A stretch of 25,695 nt of DNA, from the IMG/VR virus record IMGVR_UViG_3300032235_000832, positions 1 through 25,695 of that record. One strand, written 5' to 3'. The notes below the pieces were generated by a model, which did no database searches, had not been told where the DNA came from, and was given only the letters and a program-made list of their open reading frames with translations. Position 1 is the first letter of the stretch, and every line of letters starts with the position of its first letter. Source of the DNA: a virus. A program made the translations under genes and the position numbers. This document shows, one piece after another, positions 1,596 through 23,193 of the stretch.

Positions 1596-2387
1596 TTACT
1601 TATTTTCCCATCCAGGAGGAAGAGTACCAAAGTAAGGATCATAATTAAAAACACTATCCCAATTTTCAATATTTACAGATTCATTCTTCCAAAAATTCCA
1701 TATACCATCATAACTACTACGGTGATAAGTATCTATGTGAACATCATGAATTGAAGATCCCAATTCAATTTTATAAAGAAATAAAGGAATTGAAAAAGTA
1801 TTTCCTGAATTGTAAATTAAATCATCTGCAACTGCACGTGGTTTTACACCATTGTCTAATTTATACTTATCTCCACGACAGTGTAAATTAATAATTTTTT
1901 GTGCATGATGTCTTGTTATTAGATAACATGCGGTTGAAAAATCGTTTACAAATCTACGATGCATCTGAGCATATACTTGAGCGGGATTAATGATTGCAAG
2001 TTGAATAACATCATAATCATATGGAATCTTGCAAAAAAAATCTTTCCAAGTAAAAGGCCAATGTTTTACAGTATCTAAGTCACAATCATCTTCCATAATT
2101 AAAGCACATGGAGAATCAGAATTTTCCAACCAATACTTCAACGCTTTAATATGTGATGTCACACATCCAACTTCTCCAGAAGACATCATATCAGGATATC
2201 TACCTTTTAAAATATCACCCAAATCATCTTCTCTACCATCATATGCAGAAATACGAGTATAATTTTCAATTTCCCAATATTTAAACTGCTTTTCCATGTA
2301 TTCTGATCTTTCTGGTTGCCCATCAAGATTTAAATAATAAATTGGAGGTATTCCTTTCAGTTTATATGCTGATTTATTTTTGTCCAT
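1596..2387 (-). CDS. GT25-family glycosyltransferase (LPS beta-galactosyltransferase type)
   Basis: A 263-aa protein with the GT25 (LgtB/LpsA type) layout. It has the N-terminal strand IYYLNLDGQPER (16-27), then the family block GEVGCVTSHIKAL (71-83) and the metal-binding stretch IMEDDCD (97-103). Family members transfer Gal or related sugars onto LPS oligosaccharide or protein acceptors. I choose the ATG at 2387; a TTG 15 nt further upstream is in frame but has no support. The start overlaps the epimerase gene by 14 nt. It is the last gene of the island, followed by the terminator at 1544-1566. The acceptor sugar cannot be read from sequence. Confidence 0.85.
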   Translation of the reverse strand: MDKNKSAYKLKGIPPIYYLNLDGQPERSEYMEKQFKYWEIENYTRISAYDGREDDLGDILKGRYPDMMSSGEVGCVTSHIKALKYWLENSDSPCALIMEDDCDLDTVKHWPFTWKDFFCKIPYDYDVIQLAIINPAQVYAQMHRRFVNDFSTACYLITRHHAQKIINLHCRGDKYKLDNGVKPRAVADDLIYNSGNTFSIPLFLYKIELGSSIHDVHIDTYHRSSYDGIWNFWKNESVNIENWDSVFNYDPYFGTLPPGWENK

Positions 2388-3273
2388 TAATCCAATCTTC
2401 AAGTTTCATTGTAGGTTTCCATCCAAAAGTCTGACAAATTTTTTTATTATTTGCAAGACTCAATCTAGTTTCACCAGGTCTTGGTGCAATATTTATTTTA
2501 TAATCAGAAATCATTCTTGAAATTTGATTTATAGAATAATTATTACCAGTTCCAACATTATAAACCTGCCCAAATGCTTCAGAATCAACCTCTTTAGTTG
2601 CGGCTAAAATATTTGCATTTACAACATCACCAACATATGTAAAATCTCTACGCTGATTACCGTCCCCAACAATAGTTAATGGTTCTTTTGCAGCATGTTG
2701 ACGAAGAAATATACCAATTACTGGAGCGTACTGTCCTCTTAGTGGTTGACGTTCTCCATACACATTAAAGTATCTAAAACTAATTGTGGGTAATCCATAC
2801 AATTCAGTATACATTTTGCAAAGTTTTTCTCCAGAAACTTTGGAAACTGAATATGGATTTAAACAATCATCAGATTGTGTTTCAATATTAGCAGGTTCAT
2901 TTCTACCATAAGCAGATGAAGTAGAAGAATACATAACACGTTTTACAATCGCTTCACGAGCACATTGTAAAACAGTACAAGTACCAACAGCGTTAATACT
3001 TACTGCTTCAATTGGATTTTCAATAGCAGGTTGAATACGTGCTTCTGCTGCAAGATGAAAAACATAATCAACGCCATCATAAAGAGGGCGAGTGTTTTTA
3101 TAGTCACGAATATCGTATTTGTAATTTTGTGCTTTATCATTCCAATAAAATTGATCATGAGCATCAGAATACTCATTATCAATTACAATAACTTCATGAC
3201 CCATTTCAATAAGACGGTCTACAAGGTTTGAACCAATAAATCCAGCACCACCAGTCACTAATGATTTTACCAT
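2374..3273 (-). CDS. NAD-dependent nucleotide-sugar epimerase/dehydratase (GalE-like)
   Basis: Extended short-chain dehydrogenase of 299 aa. The Rossmann motif TGGAGFIGS lies at 7-15 and the catalytic Y141-x3-K145 in NPYSVSKVSGEK, with the serine block YSSTSS (115-120). RYFNVYG and the late RRDFTYVGD block are typical of UDP-Glc/UDP-GlcNAc 4-epimerases and dTDP-glucose dehydratase relatives. It most likely supplies UDP-Gal or UDP-GalNAc to the transferases here. Base composition is less AT-rich than the flanking transferases. The start abuts the stop of the GT11 gene upstream (TAA followed directly by ATG). The exact substrate is not determinable by eye. Confidence 0.88.
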   Translation of the reverse strand: MVKSLVTGGAGFIGSNLVDRLIEMGHEVIVIDNEYSDAHDQFYWNDKAQNYKYDIRDYKNTRPLYDGVDYVFHLAAEARIQPAIENPIEAVSINAVGTCTVLQCAREAIVKRVMYSSTSSAYGRNEPANIETQSDDCLNPYSVSKVSGEKLCKMYTELYGLPTISFRYFNVYGERQPLRGQYAPVIGIFLRQHAAKEPLTIVGDGNQRRDFTYVGDVVNANILAATKEVDSEAFGQVYNVGTGNNYSINQISRMISDYKINIAPRPGETRLSLANNKKICQTFGWKPTMKLEDWINGQK

Positions 3274-4080
3274 TTAAATTACCTCCCAATGTTCTAAATA
3301 AAGGTCTTCAGTTTTTTTATCAGCATTTCCAGAACCAAACCATGTTGATGGCGCAATAACATTTTGACTATTAGACAACCACGCTCCCCACCAACTGTAT
3401 GACGAATTTGCAATAATATGATATTTGCATAAAGACATTAAACAAAGATCAACATATTGATCTTTAGATTCTGATATCATAAATCTATCAGAAGAAAATG
3501 TATCCTGGGTTTTACACCATTCAGGATCATCAGAAAAAACTAAAACTGGAATATCTGTGTCAAATTTAGAAAGTGCTTCAATATAATAATTTGTACTTAA
3601 AATTGTATGATTTGGATTTTTTAAGTAATCAGTTCTACGAACATGGAGTGATATCGCACTACCAATAGAACTCATCATTTCTAAACAAGGATCTAATATT
3701 TCCTTTTTAAAAGTAAAATCTGATCTTATTATTTCTTCAACATTTTTGAAATATTTTTCAGACTGAAAAAATCCAGCAAGAGTTATTTCATCTGGACACA
3801 TATTAAACAATATTTGATCAAAATGAAAATACTTTTCATTTACAACTGGAGCATATCCTCTATCCATTATTCCAATATTTTTTTGTGATATTGAACTCAT
3901 TTTAAATGGATAGAATAATTCAATTTTAATATCAAATCCATATGGATCTTTAAAAATTTGATTATGATTTGGAATACAAAAATCATATCCCCTATTTCTA
4001 GCAATACCTCTCAAAGAAGCATACTGAAACATTTGATTACCAAGTCTACCTAATTGTCCTAAGTGATTAAACGCTAACAT
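3274..4080 (-). CDS. GT11 alpha-1,2-fucosyltransferase, copy 1
   Basis: The 268-aa protein has all GT11 landmarks: GRLGNQMFQYASLRG (11-25), the GDP-fucose-binding HVRRTDYL (146-153), and ANSSYSWWGAWL (224-235). GT11 enzymes use GDP-L-fucose, and some accept GDP-colitose, to make alpha-1,2 linkages on LPS O-antigen or glycan ends. In copy 1 the second RR-motif residue is T, where the other two copies have G. A good ribosome site (GGAGG) lies about 9 nt before the ATG. The start overlaps the upstream gene by 14 nt. It is the most diverged of three tandem-region paralogs. Confidence 0.9.
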   Translation of the reverse strand: MLAFNHLGQLGRLGNQMFQYASLRGIARNRGYDFCIPNHNQIFKDPYGFDIKIELFYPFKMSSISQKNIGIMDRGYAPVVNEKYFHFDQILFNMCPDEITLAGFFQSEKYFKNVEEIIRSDFTFKKEILDPCLEMMSSIGSAISLHVRRTDYLKNPNHTILSTNYYIEALSKFDTDIPVLVFSDDPEWCKTQDTFSSDRFMISESKDQYVDLCLMSLCKYHIIANSSYSWWGAWLSNSQNVIAPSTWFGSGNADKKTEDLYLEHWEVI

Positions 4081-4895: not shown

Positions 4896-5735
4896 TTAAA
4901 TTTCAATCCAGTTACTAGGCAAAAGATCACTCATATTATAATGAGAAAAGTTTGGTCCAAACCATTTCTTTGGTGCAATTATAGGATAAGTTGGGTTATT
5001 AATTAACCAAGCACCCCACCAACTCAATGAACTATTCGCAATAATTCCACCCTTACATAAAGTCATTAAACAAAGATCATAATATGGAACAAACAATTTA
5101 TCATAACCACCAGAAACTATAACTTTATGATTATATTTTTCATTTCCTTCAGATATAAAAAATCTATCTGAAGAAAATAGTTTTTGTTTTTTACACCATT
5201 CAATATCATTAGAACATATAATTACATCACAATCATCATCAAAATAACTCAAAGCAGTCTCATAATACTCAATAGAACAGGTTGGATGACATCCTGGATT
5301 GTTTAGATAGTCTCCTCTTCTAACGTGAATAAAAATTGGTTTATTTAAGGTTTCAACAAATTGCTGACAGGTTTTTAATATATCATCCTTAAAAGTGTAA
5401 TCAGTTTTTATAAGATCTTTTACATTTAAAAAATATTTTTGAGTTTGAAAAAAGTCGTTTAGATTAACATTATCTGGGCAATTATTAAATAAATTTTCAT
5501 CAAAATGAAAATTACCAGTCTCATAAGTTTTCGCATCTATAAATCCAAAGTTATTTGGAGTAACTGATTGCATCTTAAAGCATTCAAATAATCCATAATT
5601 GGCATCATAGTAATTATCTGGAGGGGGAATAACCCAATCATATCCCATGTTTTCGGATATTCCTCGCAAAGATGCATATTGGAACATTTGATTTCCCAAA
5701 AAACCATTGGATCCTAATCTATTATATCCAATCAT
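4896..5735 (-). CDS. GT11 alpha-1,2-fucosyltransferase, copy 2
   Basis: 279 aa. GT11 motifs: GFLGNQMFQYASLRG (11-25), HVRRGDYL (137-144) and ANSSLSWWGAWL (233-244). I choose the ATG at 5735. It overlaps the upstream stop as ATGA and has GGAG about 9 nt before it. An ATG at 5750 would add five residues. Bases 4995-5072 are identical to 5840-5917 in copy 3, which covers the ANSSLSWWGAWL region. The two copies arose by duplication and have recombined or diverged very unevenly. Expected donor GDP-L-fucose, or GDP-colitose if the ColD branch is active. Confidence 0.9.
   Translation of the reverse strand: MIGYNRLGSNGFLGNQMFQYASLRGISENMGYDWVIPPPDNYYDANYGLFECFKMQSVTPNNFGFIDAKTYETGNFHFDENLFNNCPDNVNLNDFFQTQKYFLNVKDLIKTDYTFKDDILKTCQQFVETLNKPIFIHVRRGDYLNNPGCHPTCSIEYYETALSYFDDDCDVIICSNDIEWCKKQKLFSSDRFFISEGNEKYNHKVIVSGGYDKLFVPYYDLCLMTLCKGGIIANSSLSWWGAWLINNPTYPIIAPKKWFGPNFSHYNMSDLLPSNWIEI
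4995..5072. repeat. 78-bp perfect direct repeat, copy A (in GT11 copy 2)
   Basis: Identical base for base to 5840-5917. It encodes the C-terminal GT11 donor-site block in both genes, while flanking sequence is clearly diverged. Confidence 0.93.
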
Positions 5736-6592
5736 TCTATAATCTCCCATTCATTCGGAATTAAATCATCCATCACATAATAATTATACATTGGACCAAA
5801 CCATTCATTCGGATCTGGAGAAATTATTTTTTTGTCCTCGTTATTAATTAACCAAGCACCCCACCAACTCAATGAACTATTCGCAATAATTCCACCCTTA
5901 CATAAAGTCATTAAACACAAATCCCAAAAAGGAATTAAAGAGTTTTCAATAGCACCGTCGCCCATTTGCATTTTAATATTAAATTTTTCAGTATTTTCAG
6001 AAATAAAAAATCTATCTGGTTTAAAAATATCTTGCTCTTTGCACCAGTCTGAATCGTCAGACAGTACAATAACAGGAATATTTGTATCAAATTTATTTAA
6101 AGACTTTTTATAATAATCTTCCCTCAACAATGGATGATAATTTTGAACTCTAACATAGTCACCTCGACGAACATGTAAGAATATTGCATCACCAATACTA
6201 TTAATTATTTCTAAACAAGGATTTAAAATTTCTGGTATAAAGGAAAAATCAAGTCGTATATCATTCTCAATATGTTTAAAATATTTTTCAGATTGAAAAT
6301 GAGTTTCTAAATCTACATTGTCTTCACACTCATTGAAAAGAACTTCATTAAAATGAAATTGCTTTTTTTCATAAGATGTTCTTTTTTCATTACCAAAACC
6401 TATATTTTTTTCTTTAACACTGGACATTTCAAAACATTGAAATAAACAATAATTTGTTTCACCAGGATGAGATTTTGGAGGTATTAAAAAATCAAATCCA
6501 CGATTTGCTGCAATACCACGCAAACCAGCGTATTGGAACATCTGGTTTCCAAGACGACCATTTGATCCCAATCTATTATAACTTATTGTCAT
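5732..6592 (-). CDS. GT11 alpha-1,2-fucosyltransferase, copy 3
   Basis: 286 aa with GRLGNQMFQYAGLRG (12-26), HVRRGDYV (140-147) and a C-terminal NSSLSWWGAWL block. Compared with copy 1 it has an insert of about 15 residues before the last motif (after SENTEKF), as copy 2 does. ATG at 6592 overlaps the FkbM stop as ATGA, and AGGAAA lies 8-10 nt upstream. Tandem arrangement with copy 2 and the shared 78-bp identity indicate intra-island duplication. The three paralogs may fucosylate different acceptor positions. Confidence 0.9.
   Translation of the reverse strand: MTISYNRLGSNGRLGNQMFQYAGLRGIAANRGFDFLIPPKSHPGETNYCLFQCFEMSSVKEKNIGFGNEKRTSYEKKQFHFNEVLFNECEDNVDLETHFQSEKYFKHIENDIRLDFSFIPEILNPCLEIINSIGDAIFLHVRRGDYVRVQNYHPLLREDYYKKSLNKFDTNIPVIVLSDDSDWCKEQDIFKPDRFFISENTEKFNIKMQMGDGAIENSLIPFWDLCLMTLCKGGIIANSSLSWWGAWLINNEDKKIISPDPNEWFGPMYNYYVMDDLIPNEWEIIE
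5840..5917. repeat. 78-bp perfect direct repeat, copy B (in GT11 copy 3)
   Basis: Partner of 4995-5072, in the same orientation and frame, 845 bp apart. Confidence 0.93.
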
Positions 6593-7219: not shown

Positions 7220-8035
7220 TTACTCCGATTTTAAATAAATTTGATAGATATAATCTTCGTTGATTAAAAGATCTTTAATTCTTTCTAGATTTTCCTTTAC
7301 TGCATCTAGTTTATCATAATATAAGTCTGGAGTCAATGTTGAGATATCAAAATCATCGTTTAATATAATAATACCATCCAAATTAAAAAACTTTCCAATA
7401 TCAGGAGTTCCATAATAAATTGGTATTGTTCCTGTAGCAAAACAATCTTGAATTTTTTCAGTAAAATATGTTTTGTAAGAAGCATTCTCAATTGCAACTG
7501 AAAACATATAGTCTGCTAGACCTTCTTCTTTAGATTGAATCTCATTGAAACCACGACCATAAAAATCAACTTTACCTTGAAGTTTTTGAGCCCAGGTCAA
7601 TCGATTCTGATGCCCCTCACACATTAACTTATTAGAACAAATCATTGAAACCAATTTACTTTTTTCATAAAGTTTTGGTTCAGGGATCCAACTTCCATAT
7701 AATGGAGAAAACTTAAACTTGGAGTGAAGTTGAAGAAGTTCTTGATTGTGAGTAAAAATAGCATCATAAACTCTAATATAATGAAGGTAGTTACTCTTCA
7801 TATCTTCTACAACATCTGGACAAATATTTCTAGATTCTAGTAACCAAGCATATTTCTTCTTGCTAGTATCATCATCAAAAGCAAGTCCAATGTGCCTATC
7901 CACATAGAATGTTTCTTCTGCTCCAGAATCTACCCATTCAATAAACTTTGATTCTTGTTTATAAATGGAAGATGCTTTGTTTTCATTGTGATAATTATTA
8001 AATCCAGCACCAATTAAATTATATTTTTTTTTCAT
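7220..8035 (-). CDS. GT10 alpha-1,3/1,4-fucosyltransferase
   Basis: 271 aa from the ATG at 8035; an in-frame GTG two codons earlier (8041) is an alternative. The C-terminal GT10 signature spans residues 178-209. Its core is AIENASYKTYFTEKIQDCFA (181-200) followed by a G-x-IP-x-YYG loop, matching the bacterial FucT region that binds GDP-fucose. The N-terminal half contains WLLESR (64-69) and a stretch reaching FTHNQELL, as in GT10 acceptor domains. With three GT11 enzymes and Gmd/Fcl it strengthens the case for a fucose-rich glycan. No strong ribosome site is visible. Confidence 0.87.
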   Translation of the reverse strand: MKKKYNLIGAGFNNYHNENKASSIYKQESKFIEWVDSGAEETFYVDRHIGLAFDDDTSKKKYAWLLESRNICPDVVEDMKSNYLHYIRVYDAIFTHNQELLQLHSKFKFSPLYGSWIPEPKLYEKSKLVSMICSNKLMCEGHQNRLTWAQKLQGKVDFYGRGFNEIQSKEEGLADYMFSVAIENASYKTYFTEKIQDCFATGTIPIYYGTPDIGKFFNLDGIIILNDDFDISTLTPDLYYDKLDAVKENLERIKDLLINEDYIYQIYLKSE

Positions 8036-8045
8036 AAACACAAAA

Positions 8046-11717: not shown

Positions 11718-12059
11718 TTAAACACCCTTATAATGTTTTACAGAATCTTCACGTAAAGATCTTCCAGTTACAATAGCATTATCTACAAGGAGATTAACTG
11801 CTTGTACCAAACGAGGACGCTTGACTTTAAAGCAAATATCAATCTTACGCTTTAGTTCTGCAACTTCGGCATCAGTTTTTGCTTCCTGAATTGCATCTTC
11901 CAACATCCACATACGAGTGTGAAGAATTGAAAGTTTCTCAATCACTTCACCAAGGTTATCAGTCTCAATATATTCAACATCTGGAAGTTCTCTGCGAGAA
12001 AGAACTTCATTAATAGTTTCGTTGATACATTGATCGATTAAATCGCCAAACTTGCTCAT
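11718..12059 (-). CDS. Small helical protein of the glycan island (DUF4254-like?)
   Basis: 113 aa, predicted almost wholly helical. It has LHTRMWMLEDAI (46-57) and a basic region IDICFKVKRPRLVQAVN. The layout LH-x-x-MW-x-LED followed by K/R-rich helices recalls DUF4254-type proteins found in polysaccharide clusters, but the match is by memory and weak. It is distinctly less AT-rich than its neighbours. ATG at 12059 overlaps the stop of the ColD-like gene. A structural or scaffold role for the glycan machinery is inference. Confidence 0.6.
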   Translation of the reverse strand: MSKFGDLIDQCINETINEVLSRRELPDVEYIETDNLGEVIEKLSILHTRMWMLEDAIQEAKTDAEVAELKRKIDICFKVKRPRLVQAVNLLVDNAIVTGRSLREDSVKHYKGV

Positions 12060-13228
12060 AACTCTCCTAAAATAGTTTCCAGTAAATTCATGTCTCTATC
12101 AGATACAAATTGATTGTTCCCGATATAAACTCCGTTTTCGTGAATGATGTCTACATTCAGATTTTCTGTTTTGCCGATAATGAAATAATCCTTTAAATAA
12201 GGTTGTCTCAAAAGATTTCCACCAACCACAGGTCTATATTCAATTTTATATTTGTTTAGTAAAGAAATTAGTCTTGTTTTAATTTCTTTAGTTTTGCAAA
12301 TAAAAGGGAAACAGAAGCAACTGTTCCCTTCATTATACACTATTGGATAAAAATTGTCTCTATTTTTTGAAGAAGACATAATTTCCACAAATCTAGAATA
12401 TGCCTTATCTCTATTATCGATAAACTTATCTAGTCTTTTTAGTTGAGATAATCCCAATACTGCGCCAAATTCTGTATTTCTAAAATTATACCCATCACTT
12501 ACAAATAGAAATGATTTTTCTATTTCTGGATTCTGATTCTGATAATATTCAAATTGATCTGAGACTCTTGCTAGTCCATGAGATCGCTTCATTTTCATCA
12601 AATCATACAGTTCCCAACTATCAGTGGAAATCATTCCACCTTCTACAGTAGACATATGATGTCCAAAGTAAAAACTAAAAGTTGCTCCCAGACTATTCTT
12701 CCCTATTTTATTTCCACTTTTATCAAGACACCCATGAGATTCGCAAACATCATCAATAAACAGTGCATTTGGAAGTATCTTCTTATATTCTTCAACTTCC
12801 GCAGGAATACCTAAAAGATGAGTTACAAATACCAACTTAATGTCAGAATGAATCTCAGAGATAGTTTTAAGATTATCTAGATCAAAACTATAATTCTCAA
12901 GATTCACATCACAAAAAACAGGAGTAAGTCCTAATTGAATAATTGGGTTAATATTCGTAACCCAAGTACAAGATGGAACTAAAACTTTATCACCTTTTTG
13001 TAGTCCATACTTTTCCACTATAGCAGAGACTAGTAAAAAATTTGCTGTACTTCCAGAGGTTACAAATAATGAATACTTACAACCCAACCAATTAGACCAT
13101 TCTTTTTCAAATCGCTCAACGTTTTTACCTTGAGTAAACTTATCAGAAGTTAAAACAAATTTAGCAAGTTGAATTCTATCCCATAAAGAGATAGAATTTT
13201 TCATCAGAGGCCATTTATAGACGGACAT
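12056..13228 (-). CDS. ColD-like PLP enzyme: GDP-4-keto-6-deoxymannose 3-dehydratase
   Basis: 390-aa DegT/DnrJ/EryC1/StrS-family protein. PLP contacts are visible at TSGSTAN (57-63), the D of FIDDVCESHG (157-166) and the pocket FSFYFGHHMSTVEGG (184-198). The canonical Schiff-base lysine is replaced by H190 (FGHHMS). In this family that His marks 3-dehydratases such as ColD and RfbH rather than aminotransferases. Beside Gmd, the substrate is most likely GDP-4-keto-6-deoxymannose, with glutamate as amine source. A strong AGGAG precedes the ATG at 13228; an ATG-less longer frame to 13258 is not favoured. It overlaps the Fcl-like gene by 14 nt. Confidence 0.85.
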   Translation of the reverse strand: MSVYKWPLMKNSISLWDRIQLAKFVLTSDKFTQGKNVERFEKEWSNWLGCKYSLFVTSGSTANFLLVSAIVEKYGLQKGDKVLVPSCTWVTNINPIIQLGLTPVFCDVNLENYSFDLDNLKTISEIHSDIKLVFVTHLLGIPAEVEEYKKILPNALFIDDVCESHGCLDKSGNKIGKNSLGATFSFYFGHHMSTVEGGMISTDSWELYDLMKMKRSHGLARVSDQFEYYQNQNPEIEKSFLFVSDGYNFRNTEFGAVLGLSQLKRLDKFIDNRDKAYSRFVEIMSSSKNRDNFYPIVYNEGNSCFCFPFICKTKEIKTRLISLLNKYKIEYRPVVGGNLLRQPYLKDYFIIGKTENLNVDIIHENGVYIGNNQFVSDRDMNLLETILGEL

Positions 13229-14159
13229 AATTACTCCTATTTTTAAAGAACCAATCAATGGTAATTTTTAATCCATCTTCTAAAGATGTTTTTGCTTTCC
13301 AACCAAGAGCACTCATTTTAGAAGTATCTAATGCTCTACGGGGTGTACCATTTGGTTTAGTAGTGTCCCAAATTAAATTACCATTATAACCAACTAAATT
13401 AGAAATAATCTCAGAAAGTTCTTTAATACTTACTTCCCTTTCAGGACCAATATTAATGATTTCAGGATCATCATAATTATTCATTAAGAATACTAATCCA
13501 TCCGCAAGGTCATCAGAAAAAAGAAACTCCCTTGTCGGACTTCCATCACCAAAACAGGTTACGTTTTCAAGATTATAATCTTTAGCACTTACAAACTTAT
13601 TGATAAAACTTGGAATAACATGGCACTGTTCCAAAATAAAATTATCATTAATTCCATAAAGATTATTTGGCATTACAGAAACTGTTGAAAATCCATACTG
13701 TTCTGTATATTTTTTACACATCATATATCCAGCAATTTTTGCTAGAGAATATGAAATATTTGTTTCCTCCAAAGGACCAGTCATTAAATATTCTTCTTTA
13801 ATAGGAATTGTGGCATGTTTTGGATAAATGCAAGCAGAACCTAAGAATAGAAGTTTTTTACAACCATTTCGATATGCAGAATCAATCACATTTGTTTGAA
13901 TTTGAAGATTCTCACGAATAAAATCTGCTGGTATTACTTTATTATATCCAATACCACCAACTTTTGCGGCACCAAGAAAAACATATTCCGGACGTTCCTC
14001 TGCAAAAAAATCATCAACATCTTTTTGAATTCTCAAATCTAATTGTGATCTACTTCTAGTTAAACAATTATTATATCCAGAAGAATTTAATTTTCTAATA
14101 ATTGCAGATCCGACCAATCCCCTATGACCTGCAACAAATATTTTAGATGTTTTTTCCAT
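13215..14159 (-). CDS. fcl: GDP-L-fucose synthase-like epimerase/reductase (Fcl or ColC)
   Basis: 314 aa, NADPH-dependent dual 3,5-epimerase/4-reductase of the WcaG/Fcl family. Rossmann GHRGLVGS (11-18); SACIYPK with catalytic C110; Y137-x3-K141 in NISYSLAKIAG; H180 in CHVIPSF, matching Cys109, Tyr136, Lys140 and His179 of the E. coli enzyme by spacing. It converts GDP-4-keto-6-deoxymannose to GDP-L-fucose. ColC, the partner of ColD in colitose synthesis, is a homolog, so this single copy might serve either or both branches. A consensus promoter lies directly upstream. Confidence 0.9.
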   Translation of the reverse strand: MEKTSKIFVAGHRGLVGSAIIRKLNSSGYNNCLTRSRSQLDLRIQKDVDDFFAEERPEYVFLGAAKVGGIGYNKVIPADFIRENLQIQTNVIDSAYRNGCKKLLFLGSACIYPKHATIPIKEEYLMTGPLEETNISYSLAKIAGYMMCKKYTEQYGFSTVSVMPNNLYGINDNFILEQCHVIPSFINKFVSAKDYNLENVTCFGDGSPTREFLFSDDLADGLVFLMNNYDDPEIINIGPEREVSIKELSEIISNLVGYNGNLIWDTTKPNGTPRRALDTSKMSALGWKAKTSLEDGLKITIDWFFKNRSNYVRL

Positions 14160-14213: not shown

Positions 14214-15095
14214 TTATATATTAGATGAAATAATATTAAAAATTTCTTTTGTGTCATTACTATCAGACCAAATTTGATTACAAATTGATTCCATATACCA
14301 CTTTCCTTCAGTCTCTCTTTTTGTAAAACTAATAAAGGTTTTTTCTACATCTAATAAATTTTCTTTTATATGAGTAAAGCAGTGAGGTCCAGAAGCTCTT
14401 CCAATAATCACATTACAAAATTTAGAAATATAAGAAATATATAACAAGTCATATTTTAATTTTGTCCAGTCAGAGATGTTAATAATGTTAACAAATTCAG
14501 ACTCAATTAATTTGGTAGTTAAAAATAAGTAATTAGGAAATATTTTAGAAAGTTTTAATATAATTGGTGAAAAATCAAAATTAATTGCTTGACCAGATAA
14601 ACAATCACCATTACATACTAAAATTAGTTTTTCATAATTACATTTACCTTGACTTATTTTTTCGTTTAAATCAGAAGTAATATTTAGTCGTAAGAAATTA
14701 ATAGTTGGAAGATAGTCAATATCAGGTATATTTGTTATTTGTAACTTTTTAAGAATATCTTCACAAATTTTTTTATGAGTTAAAAATGTACATCCCTCTA
14801 TTTCTTCATAATATGGACCACCAATACCATAATAATTTCCACTCATTTTTCCAATCCACATATTAAAAATTTTTTTATCTACATTATCATTACCAAGTGG
14901 ATTGTGAATTTCTAAATCTAAACTTCCATTATGTAACGTTGGACAATCTTCAAAAATTTTTGGATTATTATTATGATTAAATTTAATCTGGTATCCTCTA
15001 GAAATAAGAGGTTTAAAAATCATTCTTGAGTAAAATAAATCTCCGTTGTGCCCATGATTATAGAGATTTATATTATTTCTTCTTTTTGGAAACAT
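14214..15095 (-). CDS. Unassigned protein between gmd and fcl, transferase-like
   Basis: 293 aa from the ATG at 15095, which overlaps the gmd stop (TAATG); a GTG at 15113 is an alternative. Extremely AT-rich, with Asn and Ile abundant. Notable blocks are NLYNHGHNGDLFYSR near the N-terminus and VIIGRASGPHCFTH in the C-terminal third. A glycine-rich loop with H, then a late GRASGP turn, would fit a GT-B-like or O-fucosyltransferase-like architecture, but I cannot name a family. It is the last gene before the internal promoter. Confidence 0.55.
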   Translation of the reverse strand: MFPKRRNNINLYNHGHNGDLFYSRMIFKPLISRGYQIKFNHNNNPKIFEDCPTLHNGSLDLEIHNPLGNDNVDKKIFNMWIGKMSGNYYGIGGPYYEEIEGCTFLTHKKICEDILKKLQITNIPDIDYLPTINFLRLNITSDLNEKISQGKCNYEKLILVCNGDCLSGQAINFDFSPIILKLSKIFPNYLFLTTKLIESEFVNIINISDWTKLKYDLLYISYISKFCNVIIGRASGPHCFTHIKENLLDVEKTFISFTKRETEGKWYMESICNQIWSDSNDTKEIFNIISSNI

Positions 15096-16096
15096 TATTG
15101 CCCATAAATGCACATATCTTCAACAAGTTGCTTAAAAGTAGTTTTAGGTTCCCATCCTAACTTTTCTTTTGCTTTGGTGGGATTTCCAAGTAAAGTTTCT
15201 ACTTCAGCAGGTCGGAAGTATTTGGGATTGACTTTAATGATTGTTCTACCAGTAGTTTTATCAATACCAACTTCATCAAGACCAGTTCCTTCCCAAATAA
15301 TATTAAATCCAAAATAAGGAGCTGCTTCCTCAACAAACTCACGAACAGAATATTGAACGCCAGTAGCAATTACATAATCATCAGGATTATCTTGCTGGAG
15401 CATTAACCACATTGCTTCCACAAAATCTTTAGCATGACCCCAATCACGCTTTGCATTTAAGTTACCAAGTTCAAGAACATCTTGCAAACCAACAGATATT
15501 CTAGAAAGAGCACGAACAATTTTACGAGTAACAAAGGTTTCTCCACGGCGAGGAGATTCGTGATTGAAAAGAATACCTGTACAAGCATACAACCCATAGG
15601 ATTCCCGATAATTTTTTGTTATCCAATAACCATAAATCTTCGCTACACCATAAGGAGATCTAGGGTAAAACGGAGTAGTTTCGCTTTGAGGAGTTTCTTG
15701 AACAAGACCATAAAGTTCGCTTGTAGACGCCTGGTAGATGCGCACACGATCCTCCATACCCAAGAGACGTACTGATTCAAGAACACGAAGAGTTCCAAGA
15801 GCATCTACTTGACCAGTATACTCTGGAGTCTCAAATGACACTTTTACATGACTTTGAGCACCAAGATTATAAATTTCATCTGGTTGAACTAACTGAATAA
15901 CTCTCACAAGATTCGTAGAATCGGTAAGATCTCCGTAATGCAACTTAATTTTATTATAGATATGATCAATCCTAGATGTATTAATCGAAGATGACCTACG
16001 AATAATACCATGAACTTCGTAACCTTTTTCTAGAAGAAGTTCCGCAAGATAGGAACCATCTTGCCCAGTAATGCCAGTAATTAATGCTTTTTTCAT
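15095..16096 (-). CDS. gmd: GDP-mannose 4,6-dehydratase
   Basis: 333 aa, clear Gmd. Rossmann [13 protein letters not shown] (7-19), the NADP-binding RRSSS (33-37), catalytic STSELYG with T125 and E127, and Y149-x3-K153 in [11 protein letters not shown]; also [17 protein letters not shown]. It converts GDP-D-mannose to GDP-4-keto-6-deoxymannose, the branch point for fucose and colitose. Length and all catalytic residues are normal. Base composition is higher in GC than nearby transferases, which may reflect separate acquisition. The TAA overlaps the next ATG. Confidence 0.96.
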
Positions 16097-16099
16097 AAA

Positions 16100-16438
16100 T
16101 TAAATCCTTCCATAGTCGTCTTCGATTCTAATGATGTCATCTTCATTACAATCGTTTCCAAGTTGTACTTCTATAATTATTATACCATCATTTCCACCAA
16201 AAATACGGTGTTTAGATAAAATTGGAACAAAAATATAATCACCAACACATATATTTTTAATATTTCCATCTACCTCAACTTTCCCATCTCCGAAAACTAC
16301 AATCCAATGTTCACATCTATAATTGTGATATTGTAATGATATTTTTTGGTTTGGATTAATATTAAGTTTTTTTACTTTATAACCATTATCGGTTTCAAGA
16401 TTTTGATACCAACCCCAAGGTCTTTCAAATTTTTCCAT
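16100..16438 (-). CDS. Phosphomannose isomerase, type II cupin domain only
   Basis: 112-aa stand-alone cupin matching the C-terminal MPI domain of ManC-type bifunctional enzymes. It starts FERPWGWYQ, then has LQYHNYRCEHWIVV with metal ligands H38 and E43, a later VPILSKHRIF with H77, and the ending EDDIIRIEDDYGR. It interconverts fructose-6-P and mannose-6-P. The GDP-mannose pyrophosphorylase domain is absent, so host ManB and ManC must supply GDP-mannose. It precedes gmd by three bases, consistent with pathway order. TAATG overlap with the upstream gene. Confidence 0.9.
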   Translation of the reverse strand: MEKFERPWGWYQNLETDNGYKVKKLNINPNQKISLQYHNYRCEHWIVVFGDGKVEVDGNIKNICVGDYIFVPILSKHRIFGGNDGIIIIEVQLGNDCNEDDIIRIEDDYGRI

Positions 16439-17259
16439 TAAACCTCACAATTTGTAAAATTCAATTGACCATTTCTAGTTGCCCAAATTGGATATTCTCT
16501 ACCATAAGTATTCCAAATTTTTGCTTGTTGATTACCTACAGGAATTCCAGATAGTTCAGTAGCATTCCAAATAGTTTCATAAGTATCATCCTCATGAAAA
16601 GTAAAATCATGGGATTCTGCTTCTTTTTTAAGTATTAAAGATAAGATAGATTGATCGTGCCTATTTTCTTTAAATATGGAATGATTTTGTAAATTTGATG
16701 GACTATCATCAAGATAACATCCATTTTCTTCTATTGAAATTGATTTCCATTTTTCAACAATATTTCTCATCATCTGATTATTTTTCATAAAAAATATACC
16801 AGAAATAATTTGACGTGTCATCATATAAACATCATTTTCTCCTAAAATTCTACGATAGGTATCCATTTTTGTCCATTGAATTTCTGGCAAATCCAATGTG
16901 AAAAAAACACCAGAAGTATCTAAACATTCTTCATAATATTGTTTAAGTTTTTCTATACCATTTTTGTTCAATTCACATCCAGAATCAACATAAAGAAGTA
17001 TATGATCTTCTGGAATATTTTTAAGTGCCTCTCCAACAAAATATGATTTGCAAGCATAATACCCATAAAATTTTTGAGGCATTCCAATTCTTTCTATCAT
17101 CATTTTACTGGCACTATTTTCCCAAAAATCTCCAGTTAAATTTTCTTCCCCAAACTCTTGAATTGATTTAAATACTTCAAAGTTTTTTGCTTGTCTTTTA
17201 AGTCTATTCTTACCAATGGAAAAATTATCATCCCCAAAGTAAGTTAAATGTAAATCCAT
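16438..17259 (-). CDS. Putative glycosyltransferase, first gene of the island
   Basis: 273 aa, soluble. A GT-A-like core is suggested by HILLYVDSGCEL (87-98), with D-x-x-C in place of a classic D-x-D, and by a later KENRHDQSILSLILK block, an H-D-Q-S signature of several LPS transferases. I do not assign a CAZy family. As the first gene after the promoter at 17283-17311 it heads the operon MPI - gmd. ATG at 17259, 24 nt downstream of the -10 box. Donor and acceptor are unknown. Confidence 0.62.
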   Translation of the reverse strand: MDLHLTYFGDDNFSIGKNRLKRQAKNFEVFKSIQEFGEENLTGDFWENSASKMMIERIGMPQKFYGYYACKSYFVGEALKNIPEDHILLYVDSGCELNKNGIEKLKQYYEECLDTSGVFFTLDLPEIQWTKMDTYRRILGENDVYMMTRQIISGIFFMKNNQMMRNIVEKWKSISIEENGCYLDDSPSNLQNHSIFKENRHDQSILSLILKKEAESHDFTFHEDDTYETIWNATELSGIPVGNQQAKIWNTYGREYPIWATRNGQLNFTNCEV

Positions 17260-17318: not shown

Positions 17319-17354
17319 AATCTTTAAATAGACAATCAATTTTTTGACTGGAAA

Positions 17355-17414
17355 TTAAAAACCAGGCGGAGAAAGATTTCCCCATCCGCACCACTTGCCT
17401 TTATGGAATGGCAA
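17355..17414 (-). CDS. Possible 19-aa mini-ORF (TTG start), in frame after the 48-aa ORF
   Basis: TTG at 17414 with AAGG 6-9 nt upstream opens 19 codons containing KGKWCGWGNLSPPGF, an unusually W/G/P-rich composition for such AT-rich DNA. It is in the same frame as the 48-aa ORF and is separated from it by one TAA and two sense codons. It could be a separate peptide, a read-through extension, or chance. Confidence 0.3.
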   Translation of the reverse strand: MPFHKGKWCGWGNLSPPGF

Positions 17415-17420
17415 GAAACC

Positions 17421-17567
17421 TTAGAGTGACATTTTTTTAGATAATTTGTAAATTAAATCATCTACTTTTTTCTCTAATTCTAAAATTCTTTCTTCAAAAT
17501 TAGAAGTTTGTTCCTTTGTCTCAGCAATAAAAATTTCTTCAGATTGAATTCTTTTTTTAGTTGCCAT
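17421..17567 (-). CDS. Small coiled-coil protein, 48 aa
   Basis: ATG at 17567 opens 48 codons ending in TAA at 17421. The sequence begins MATKKRIQSEE and continues with an amphipathic E/K/L heptad-like stretch (about 24-44, EERILELEKKVDDLIYKL), so a short coiled coil is likely. A run of seven As lies before the ATG in place of a clear ribosome site. A TATAAATT late-like box is located 9-16 nt upstream of the ATG. Unknown function. Confidence 0.6.
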   Translation of the reverse strand: MATKKRIQSEEIFIAETKEQTSNFEERILELEKKVDDLIYKLSKKMSL

Positions 17568-20177: not shown

Positions 20178-20732
20178 TTATTGGGGTATTTCTTCAGGTA
20201 CAATAATTGGAGTTTGCTCAGAATCTTCTACAGATAATTTAGAAGTTTTTTCAATTATAGATCTCAACATCCATATAAATTTACCATGAGATTCCATTAA
20301 ATCTTGAATTAGATTCTCAGTAGCATATGATCTTTGAGTTCCTGCTTCTTCGGATGCTTCTGACATTAATTCCATTAAAATCATATTATCTGTCATCAAT
20401 CTTTTAATCATATCATCAGACTTTACAATAGTCTTACCTTGAATTATTTGTTTTTGTCCCATATTATCAAACTGAATGGAATTAGATCCCTCACCTATAG
20501 TAGAAACTTCAACAATTCTAGATAATGTTCCAATTGGTCTTATATTCAAATATCTCATATGTTCAGAAAGTCGATCAATTTCTCCAAACATAGATTCATA
20601 CTGCTCACCTAAAAGAGTATGTATTTGATAAAAATCTTGACCTACCACATTCCAATGAAAGACCCAGGTTTTATGAAATAAAATAAAAAGATTTGCTTGT
20701 ATGTCACTCAATTGTTTGAAAAGTTTTTCCAT
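20178..20732 (-). CDS. Dps/ferritin-like protein
   Basis: 184 aa. The N-terminal half follows the Dps four-helix layout: FHWNVVGQDFYQIHTLLGEQ (25-44), then the second helix with EIDRLSEHM (51-59). H26, H38, D53 and E57 match the Dps ferroxidase region, but the position that usually holds Asp after H38 is G42. Dps proteins bind DNA and oxidise and store iron. A C-terminal extension ends in a proline-rich acidic tail (TPIIVPEEIPQ). An exact TATAAATA box lies 18-25 nt upstream of the ATG. Confidence 0.8.
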   Translation of the reverse strand: MEKLFKQLSDIQANLFILFHKTWVFHWNVVGQDFYQIHTLLGEQYESMFGEIDRLSEHMRYLNIRPIGTLSRIVEVSTIGEGSNSIQFDNMGQKQIIQGKTIVKSDDMIKRLMTDNMILMELMSEASEEAGTQRSYATENLIQDLMESHGKFIWMLRSIIEKTSKLSVEDSEQTPIIVPEEIPQ

Positions 20733-21714: not shown

Positions 21715-23193
21715 TCAGAACCTAAACTGAGTCTGAATCACACCACCATAGTTAGAAGAAGCATTCTTGAATCCTTGATTATTGGAAACATAGAAGATTG
21801 CAGGAGTGATGCTGATATTATCACTCACACGATAGCGATAGAAGGTTTCCCACATCAGAGCATCCTTAGTGAGGGAAGCAGCGTTGCCAGGAGCACCGAT
21901 AGCAAAACCAGCAGCATTACCCTTGACAAATACATCTGCCCACTGAAGACCAGCAAACCAAGTCTGAGACTTAGTAGCAGCACGGGGAGTGGCAGGACCT
22001 TCTACAGTATTCCACCCATAAGCACCACTCAGAGAGGGAATAATACCAGACTTCTTGGGTTGCCAGTAAGCATTCAGAGCATAACCATTGGAAGTTTGAT
22101 TGGCGGCAAGAGTGCCACCATTACCAGCAACACCATTGAAGGTACGAACACGAGTGCCTTCAGTACCATAACGATAACCAAATGCAATGCCGTACTGAGG
22201 AGCACGATAACCAAACTGTGCCAGAGTATTCAGAGCACCAGATTCGTTAAATTCACCTTTGCTAGAATCAGAACCGTTCTGAGCAACATAGTTCACACCA
22301 GCAACGAAACCACCTTTCTTGCCAGGTTGTACCCATTGAGCACCGAAACCAGAACCAGTTGCTTTATTATAAACACCAGGAGCACCAGCAACAGCGAAGA
22401 AGTCCAGAATGTCAGACTTATAGGCAGTAGGAATCCATGCCATCTCAGTGTTACGAACCAAAGCACCAGCAGTCAGATTGAGACCTTTGGTGAGAGCAGG
22501 GAACTGATAGTACAGACGGTCAAGTTGTACTTGGTTAGAAGTGCTCTCTGCCTTGTCCAGTTTGAACAGGGAAGAAGATGAACCAAAAGGTTGACTGGAG
22601 AAATTACCAGAACGCAGACGAGTCTTCAGCAAATCCTTACCAGTAAAAGAAGTATCGAAGTTCAGACGAACATCATAGTTGAATGCTGTATTGCCAACAT
22701 TAGTGCTGTTAGCAAGACGAGCACCTTCTACACCACCAAGAACGAAAGTTGCTTCGCCACGCAGTTTAGATGTGGTAGAAAATTGAGTTGCTTGAAGTTG
22801 ACCAACTTGTGCTTCCAGTTTATCAACACGACCACGAATAACTAGAAGTTCTTCAGAAAACTCTTTCGAAAGACGTTGGAGTTCATCTGTTACTTCAGTT
22901 ACACGGTCAAGGCAAGCATTCAGAAGTGCTGCTGCCTCATAACGGGTCATTGCCTTTCCACCACCATAAGTACCGTTAGGATAACCTGCTACGCAGCCAT
23001 AACGCTCCACGAGGTTGCTGAGTGCCTGATATGCCCAATCAGAAGGTTGCACATCAGAGAATTGAGTGACGCTTGTTGCTTGCTCAGCGGAGTATTGATT
23101 GACTGCTGCCATATTAAGATCTGCGGCATTCGCAACAGCAGGAGCAATCATACCAAGAGCAACGGGTGCAAGCATCAGTTGTTTGAGTTTCAT
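21715..23193 (-). CDS. Cyanobacterial SLH-domain outer-membrane porin (OprB/SomA type)
   Basis: 492 aa. Signal peptide MKLKQLMLAPVALGMIAPAV followed by ANA-A cleavage near 23; SLH domain 45-98 (FSDVQPSDWAYQALSNL; AMTRYEAAALLNACL); coiled coil about 98-137; then an OprB-like beta barrel to the end, with an aromatic C-terminal FRF as the outer-membrane insertion signal. This is the architecture of the major porins of cyanobacteria that link the outer membrane to peptidoglycan and admit nutrients. Base composition is markedly richer in G+C than the phage genes near it, which suggests acquisition from a host. Own promoter and terminator flank it. Confidence 0.93.
   Translation of the reverse strand: MKLKQLMLAPVALGMIAPAVANAADLNMAAVNQYSAEQATSVTQFSDVQPSDWAYQALSNLVERYGCVAGYPNGTYGGGKAMTRYEAAALLNACLDRVTEVTDELQRLSKEFSEELLVIRGRVDKLEAQVGQLQATQFSTTSKLRGEATFVLGGVEGARLANSTNVGNTAFNYDVRLNFDTSFTGKDLLKTRLRSGNFSSQPFGSSSSLFKLDKAESTSNQVQLDRLYYQFPALTKGLNLTAGALVRNTEMAWIPTAYKSDILDFFAVAGAPGVYNKATGSGFGAQWVQPGKKGGFVAGVNYVAQNGSDSSKGEFNESGALNTLAQFGYRAPQYGIAFGYRYGTEGTRVRTFNGVAGNGGTLAANQTSNGYALNAYWQPKKSGIIPSLSGAYGWNTVEGPATPRAATKSQTWFAGLQWADVFVKGNAAGFAIGAPGNAASLTKDALMWETFYRYRVSDNISITPAIFYVSNNQGFKNASSNYGGVIQTQFRF

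Follow-up and report, generated by a model that had tools for sequence, protein, structure and literature searches.

A gene in the long minus-strand sugar operon of a freshwater cyanophage encodes an enzyme that is supported as a ColD-type 3-dehydratase, lying nearer to ColD than to RfbH/E1 by its catalytic residue, its position in the tree, its fold and its lack of iron-sulfur cysteines. The gene (12056-13228, minus strand) is part of a 25,695-base virus record, the whole of which is called the window here, and its 390-residue product is predicted to be a PLP/PMP-dependent sugar 3-dehydratase. Colitose belongs to the rare 3,6-dideoxy sugars and is otherwise known from the surface coats of bacteria, where 3,6-dideoxyhexoses act as strong antigens and as phage receptors. 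We consider it probable that the 3-dehydratase acts on the product of Gmd, that an Fcl-like enzyme then produces GDP-L-colitose, and that the sugar is transferred by glycosyltransferases of the GT11 and GT10 families. If this is true, cyanophages could remodel the glycans that cover infected Synechococcus-like cells or their own virions, for instance to block superinfection.

The catalytic histidine and the family of the enzyme

The ORF gives an uninterrupted and complete translation belonging to the DegT family (Pfam PF01041, 192 bits), and when the protein was compared with the PDB by sequence its best match was ColD (E 8.7e-58). The motif of the protein is ATFSFYFGHHMSTVEGG, in which residue 190 is the first histidine of FGHHMS. 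In the alignments this residue occupies the column of ColD His188 and of the RfbH/E1 histidine. The assignment of the column was confirmed by the PDB entries for the ColD mutants H188N and H188K, which align exactly at His190. The same column holds a lysine in ArnB, WecE and PerA, as well as in two PerA-like paralogues of related phage contigs. The histidine was kept in 82 of 82 homologous ORFs listed from the relatives of the window, which are 36-94% identical, and was invariant in an alignment of 34 sequences, so His190 is a fixed feature of the catalytic site and neither a shifted lysine nor a sequencing error. The earlier note on this DNA had proposed that His190 replaces the PLP lysine, and these alignments bear the proposal out.

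In a maximum-likelihood tree all of the histidine enzymes were separate from the lysine aminotransferases (support 100/100), which excludes a placement of the phage enzyme inside the latter. The phage group and bacterial ColD were joined with RfbH left outside (95/89). The phage ColD-like clade formed a deep branch of its own (100/99), not nested in bacterial ColD, and its nearest outsiders in the tree were one megaphage protein and one planctomycete protein. It was also seen in the alignment that the equivalents of ColD Ser57, Trp88, Asp159, Glu162 and Ser183, and of His215, Arg219, Asn248, Arg250 and Arg331, are conserved throughout the phage group. The E1/RfbH [2Fe-2S] residues Cys251, Cys253, Cys257 and Cys261 were all absent from the window protein. 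Their absence matches what is known of ColD, which was described as having no [2Fe-2S] cluster and as differing from the aminotransferases mainly by the change of lysine to histidine (PMC8987622).

The AlphaFold model of the protein (pLDDT 89.6) resembled ColD crystal structures best, with a TM score of 0.87. In a Foldseek search the 12 best PDB matches were all ColD chains (TM 0.84-0.88), and perosamine synthase and E1 ranked after them. Residue, phylogeny, fold and the absent E1 iron-sulfur cysteines thus agree with the reading, put forward earlier, of a ColD-like 3-dehydratase. The enzyme is like ColD (WbdK) of E. coli O55 in its catalytic histidine, its cofactor residues, its lack of iron-sulfur cysteines and its fold, but it is only 32% identical to it, stands on a separate deep branch and is encoded by a virus, downstream of a wcaG RNA. 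Because of this low identity and deep branching, we infer its reaction and its substrate from characterised relatives.

The sugar operon and its distribution

The ColD-like gene overlaps by 14 bases a gene (13215-14159, minus) for a 314-residue Fcl-like protein, a predicted GDP-4-keto-6-deoxymannose epimerase/reductase by the NCBIfam Fcl model and by identity to K-12 Fcl. Gmd, the GDP-mannose 4,6-dehydratase (15095-16096, minus), scored 560.8 bits on TIGR01472 (cut-off 415) and shares 66% identity with its E. coli counterpart. Both of the neighbours expected from the earlier note are therefore present, but Gmd is separated from Fcl by an additional ORF of 299 residues (14214-15113, minus) with no assigned function. 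This ORF had no match in Pfam, NCBIfam or PHROG, and its relatives, 26-42% identical, are found elsewhere in other phage sugar clusters. Also on the minus strand are a cupin (16100-16438; PF01050, 96.9 bits), similar to the C-terminal domain of type II mannose-6-phosphate isomerase, and a small DUF4254-like protein (11718-12059; PF14063, E 5.7e-5, under the cut-off). The DUF4254-like gene starts within the 3' end of the ColD-like gene. Of 80 related phage loci about 63 contain it, in most cases immediately behind the ColD-like gene.

A candidate cis-regulatory RNA of the wcaG type (17322-17423, minus; RF01761, 74.4 bits, gathering threshold 42) lies in the leader of this operon, and 62 bases separate it from the first ORF (16438-17259). 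It was found in the equivalent place in related loci, and heads gmd-fcl operons with or without a ColD-like gene. The window further encodes, on the minus strand, a glycosyltransferase of GT11 (PF01531), the fucosyl/colitosyl-transferase family, at 3274-4080 (32.6% identity to O55 WbgN, E 4e-32), two GT11 paralogues (PF01531) at 4896-5750 and 5732-6592 (28.6% and 28.9% to WbgN), and a GT10-family, alpha-1,3/4-fucosyltransferase-like glycosyltransferase at 7220-8041 (PF00852, 44.2 bits). WbgN was shown to transfer both colitose and fucose (PMC11987014), and the GT11 and GT10 transferases of the window are therefore compatible with either donor.

The cassette is not confined to the window, as about 80 viral contigs and the isolates ACG-2014f and S-CAM7 have it too. 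Gmd lies at most 6 kb upstream of the ColD-like gene in 77 of 80 phage loci, an Fcl of at least 50% identity is present in 78 of 80, and Gmd would be the supplier of the substrate of the ColD-like enzyme. It had been suggested that a virus making a 3,6-dideoxyhexose donor would be unusual; this calls for correction, as T4-like cyanophages commonly carry the cassette and one deposit had already named the protein a 3-dehydrase. Among the matches listed, the cellular relatives came to one planctomycete MAG (36%), in a scan of genome collections that detects close relatives only. The complete cyanophage genomes P-SSM2, S-SCSM1, S-SKS1 and DSL-LC03 carry gmd and fcl in the same order as the window, and a wcaG leader was found in S-SKS1 and DSL-LC03 and is annotated in S-SCSM1. 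In contrast to the window, the ColD-like gene is absent genome-wide from all four, and their Fcl has a serine at E. coli position 108.

Among bacteria, the colitose maker E. coli O55 has a comparable arrangement, in which a gene of the 'GDP-L-fucose synthase family' overlaps colD, and gmd and a GT11 gene lie in the cluster; its partner SDR, however, is of the ColC type, and that of the window is of the Fcl type. The same order, with a histidine enzyme, was seen in alphaproteobacterial plasmid operons (gmd - GDP-L-fucose synthase - DegT) of Sulfitobacter, Paracoccus, Chelatococcus and Phaeobacter. In environmental bacteria with such operons the enzyme is 31-34% identical to the window protein. 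The SDRs of the alphaproteobacterial operons group with O55 ColC, whereas the window SDR does not.

The Fcl-like partner and the proposed route to colitose

The earlier note had the Fcl-like enzyme acting as ColC, a predicted role that is the weak link in the colitose reading. The protein is 45% identical to K-12 Fcl and 35% identical to O55 ColC, and its score of 408.4 bits on NF047922 (GDP-L-fucose synthase), below the equivalog cut-off of 500, places it in the Fcl family. The SDR and epimerase residues Ser107, Tyr136, Lys140, Cys109 and His179 (E. coli Fcl numbering) are all present, the last two as Cys110 and His180 of the phage protein, and since they are common to Fcl and ColC they would not discriminate between the two. 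In the tree the protein was found among Fcl enzymes and outside the bacterial ColC clade (100/100), so that a ColC identity by phylogeny was rejected, although a constrained sister relation of the Fcl-like protein with ColC was not (p-AU 0.309).

The protein is a member of a phage subtype of Fcl with alanine (Ala109) in place of E. coli Ser108, most members of which are also changed at positions 202 and 283. To avoid the bias of loci fetched with ColD queries, the association of this residue with the histidine enzyme was calculated from loci retrieved by Fcl queries. The histidine enzyme accompanied the Ala-type Fcl in all 46 informative loci and the Ser-type in 10 of 64. After clustering at 75% identity, it was present in 8 of 8 Ala clusters and absent from 6 of 10 Ser clusters. 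As the Ala-type enzymes form one clade (93/97), the link is to be counted as one lineage event and not as 46 independent ones. Bacterial ColC has serine or threonine at position 108, and alanine is therefore no mark of ColC. It speaks against a simple coupling that ColD-like genes in some phages adjoin an ordinary Ser-type Fcl. C4-reductases of the GFS family from C. jejuni were shown to accept and reduce 3-deoxy GDP-sugars (PMC10440746), which makes the colitose step chemically plausible for either Fcl subtype. The proposal that the Fcl-like enzyme serves as ColC thus gained from a subtype found only beside the histidine enzyme and from the sister relation that was not rejected, and lost from its position outside the ColC clade.

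On a cyanophage contig (L072:5099-5998) an SDR precedes the ColD-like gene; it is 33% identical to the window Fcl and groups with bacterial ColC (91/81) on a long branch. Lysine PerA-like genes, similar to GDP-perosamine synthase, were found at L175:6914-8002, L209:6884-8047 and L017:7525, and in L175 and L209 the gene occupies the slot directly after fcl that elsewhere belongs to the ColD-like gene. Given these lysine genes in the same slot, and the gmd-fcl genomes that have no ColD-like gene, adjacency alone is no proof that Fcl acts after the ColD-like enzyme.

Another reading, possible though less likely in our view, is that the operon feeds two parallel branches. Gmd and the Fcl-like enzyme would produce GDP-L-fucose for the GT11 and GT10 transferases, while the ColD-like enzyme would divert a part of the Gmd product to GDP-4-keto-3,6-dideoxymannose, from which some other host or phage reductase would make colitose or a different 3,6-dideoxyhexose. 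The partner SDR is indeed of the Fcl type with conserved epimerase cysteine and histidine, cyanophages with gmd and fcl alone were described as makers of GDP-fucose (PMC9602691), and some phages have PerA-like or ColD-like genes as optional additions next to a canonical Fcl of the Ser type. Against two branches stand the constant company of the histidine enzyme and the distinct Ala-type Fcl of the window lineage, and the fact that the window holds no other obvious GDP-sugar reductase, its second SDR (2374-3273) being GalE/LegB-like.

In the single route that we prefer, Gmd would convert GDP-mannose to GDP-4-keto-6-deoxy-D-mannose, and the ColD-like enzyme, with PMP formed from PLP and glutamate, would bind the 4-keto group as a Schiff base. 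His190, as both acid and base, would remove the cofactor proton and the C3 hydroxyl would depart, after which hydrolysis would yield GDP-4-keto-3,6-dideoxy-D-mannose and ammonia. The Fcl-like enzyme would invert C5 and reduce C4 with NADPH to give GDP-L-colitose, and one or more of the GT11 and GT10 transferases would attach colitose to a glycan on the surface of the infected cell or of the virion. A colitose branch passing through GDP-4-keto-3,6-dideoxymannose had been put forward earlier; the type of the 3-dehydratase and the full-scoring Gmd agree with it, and its last part is weakened by the Fcl-like enzyme not being in the ColC clade. GDP-L-colitose is a likely product. That colitose is the end product and that the Fcl-like enzyme takes the 3-deoxy substrate is suggested with less confidence, and the last two steps, as well as a biological role on host LPS or on a virion glycan, are put forward as a proposal. 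On a still more tentative level, it is possible that T4-like cyanophages own a pathway to GDP-L-colitose, or to a close 3,6-dideoxyhexose, in which the role of ColC was taken by a phage-specific descendant of Fcl with alanine at E. coli position 108, recruited apart from bacterial ColC, and in which the rare sugar coats the host or the virion.

Competing assignments, annotation and viral setting

The true substrate may be a different GDP-4-keto sugar, such as a heptose as in C. jejuni HS:5, and the product a 3,6-dideoxy sugar other than colitose. Relatives of ColD that are active on GDP-heptose do exist (PMC10440746), and the distance to ColD leaves room for such a shift; we nonetheless hold it to be improbable, as the window showed no recognisable gene of a heptose pathway and Gmd is a full-score GDP-mannose 4,6-dehydratase.

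Much less credible is that the enzyme is a CDP-4-keto-6-deoxyglucose 3-dehydratase (RfbH/E1/DdhC), as implied by one S-CAM7 deposit that names the protein 'putative CDP-4-keto-6-deoxy-D-glucose-3-dehydrase'. RfbH/E1 has in common with the phage enzyme the DegT fold and the histidine of a 3-dehydratase, and the RfbH model NF011936 was the best NCBIfam model for the protein. Its score of 181.9 bits is, however, far under the cut-off of 423, and RfbH/E1 differs in having a [2Fe-2S] cluster, the cysteines of which are missing here, and a CDP-sugar substrate. This identity was rejected; the tree groups the enzyme with ColD, and the window has no recognisable CDP-glucose 4,6-dehydratase. An ordinary sugar aminotransferase such as GDP-perosamine synthase, in which the lysine has moved or the active site has lost its function, would suit the DegT fold and the family names, but was rejected with next to no weight left to it, since the residue at the site of the catalytic lysine is His190, no relative has lysine there, the tree sets the group apart from the lysine enzymes, and true lysine PerA-like paralogues accompany the ColD-like gene on certain phage contigs (L017, L080).

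The family as such was already known, as ACG-2014f and S-CAM7 carry the Gmd-Fcl-ColD-like cassette, and their proteins, which belong to PHROG 3139, are 54% identical to that of the window. Both RefSeq and PHROG 3139 label the family 'aminotransferase'; as its members carry the histidine, the name 3-dehydratase fits better with the residue, the tree and the fold, and the correction alters the reconstruction of pathways for many cyanophages. What is new is the reading of the pathway, the corrected name, and the link of one Fcl subtype with the histidine enzyme. No literature linking cyanophages with colitose was found among open-licence papers, an absence that is not proof.

The cyanophage character of the window is seen in a PhotoRC-II RNA, a plant-type ferredoxin, a 2OG-Fe(II) oxygenase and eight tRNAs. 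Large related contigs with the ColD-like gene encode a T4-type Gp23 capsid protein, and the copy of the ColD-like gene in a 211-kb contig is 93% identical. In a 231,085-base contig (G004, which holds locus L240) the Gp23 gene (110468-111533) has several TGA and TAA stops, which may reflect a broken assembly or an altered code. The window also carries a match to the PHROG 3636 'DNA binding protein' (20178-20732, minus; 1.7e-33), Dps-like by eye, and a SomB-type cyanobacterial outer-membrane porin of iron uptake (21715-23193, minus; NF033921, 293 bits, cut-off 100). Such a porin is unusual in a phage, and relatives of it were found in 5 of the 11 related records that were searched, with identities of 68-82% in four of the five.
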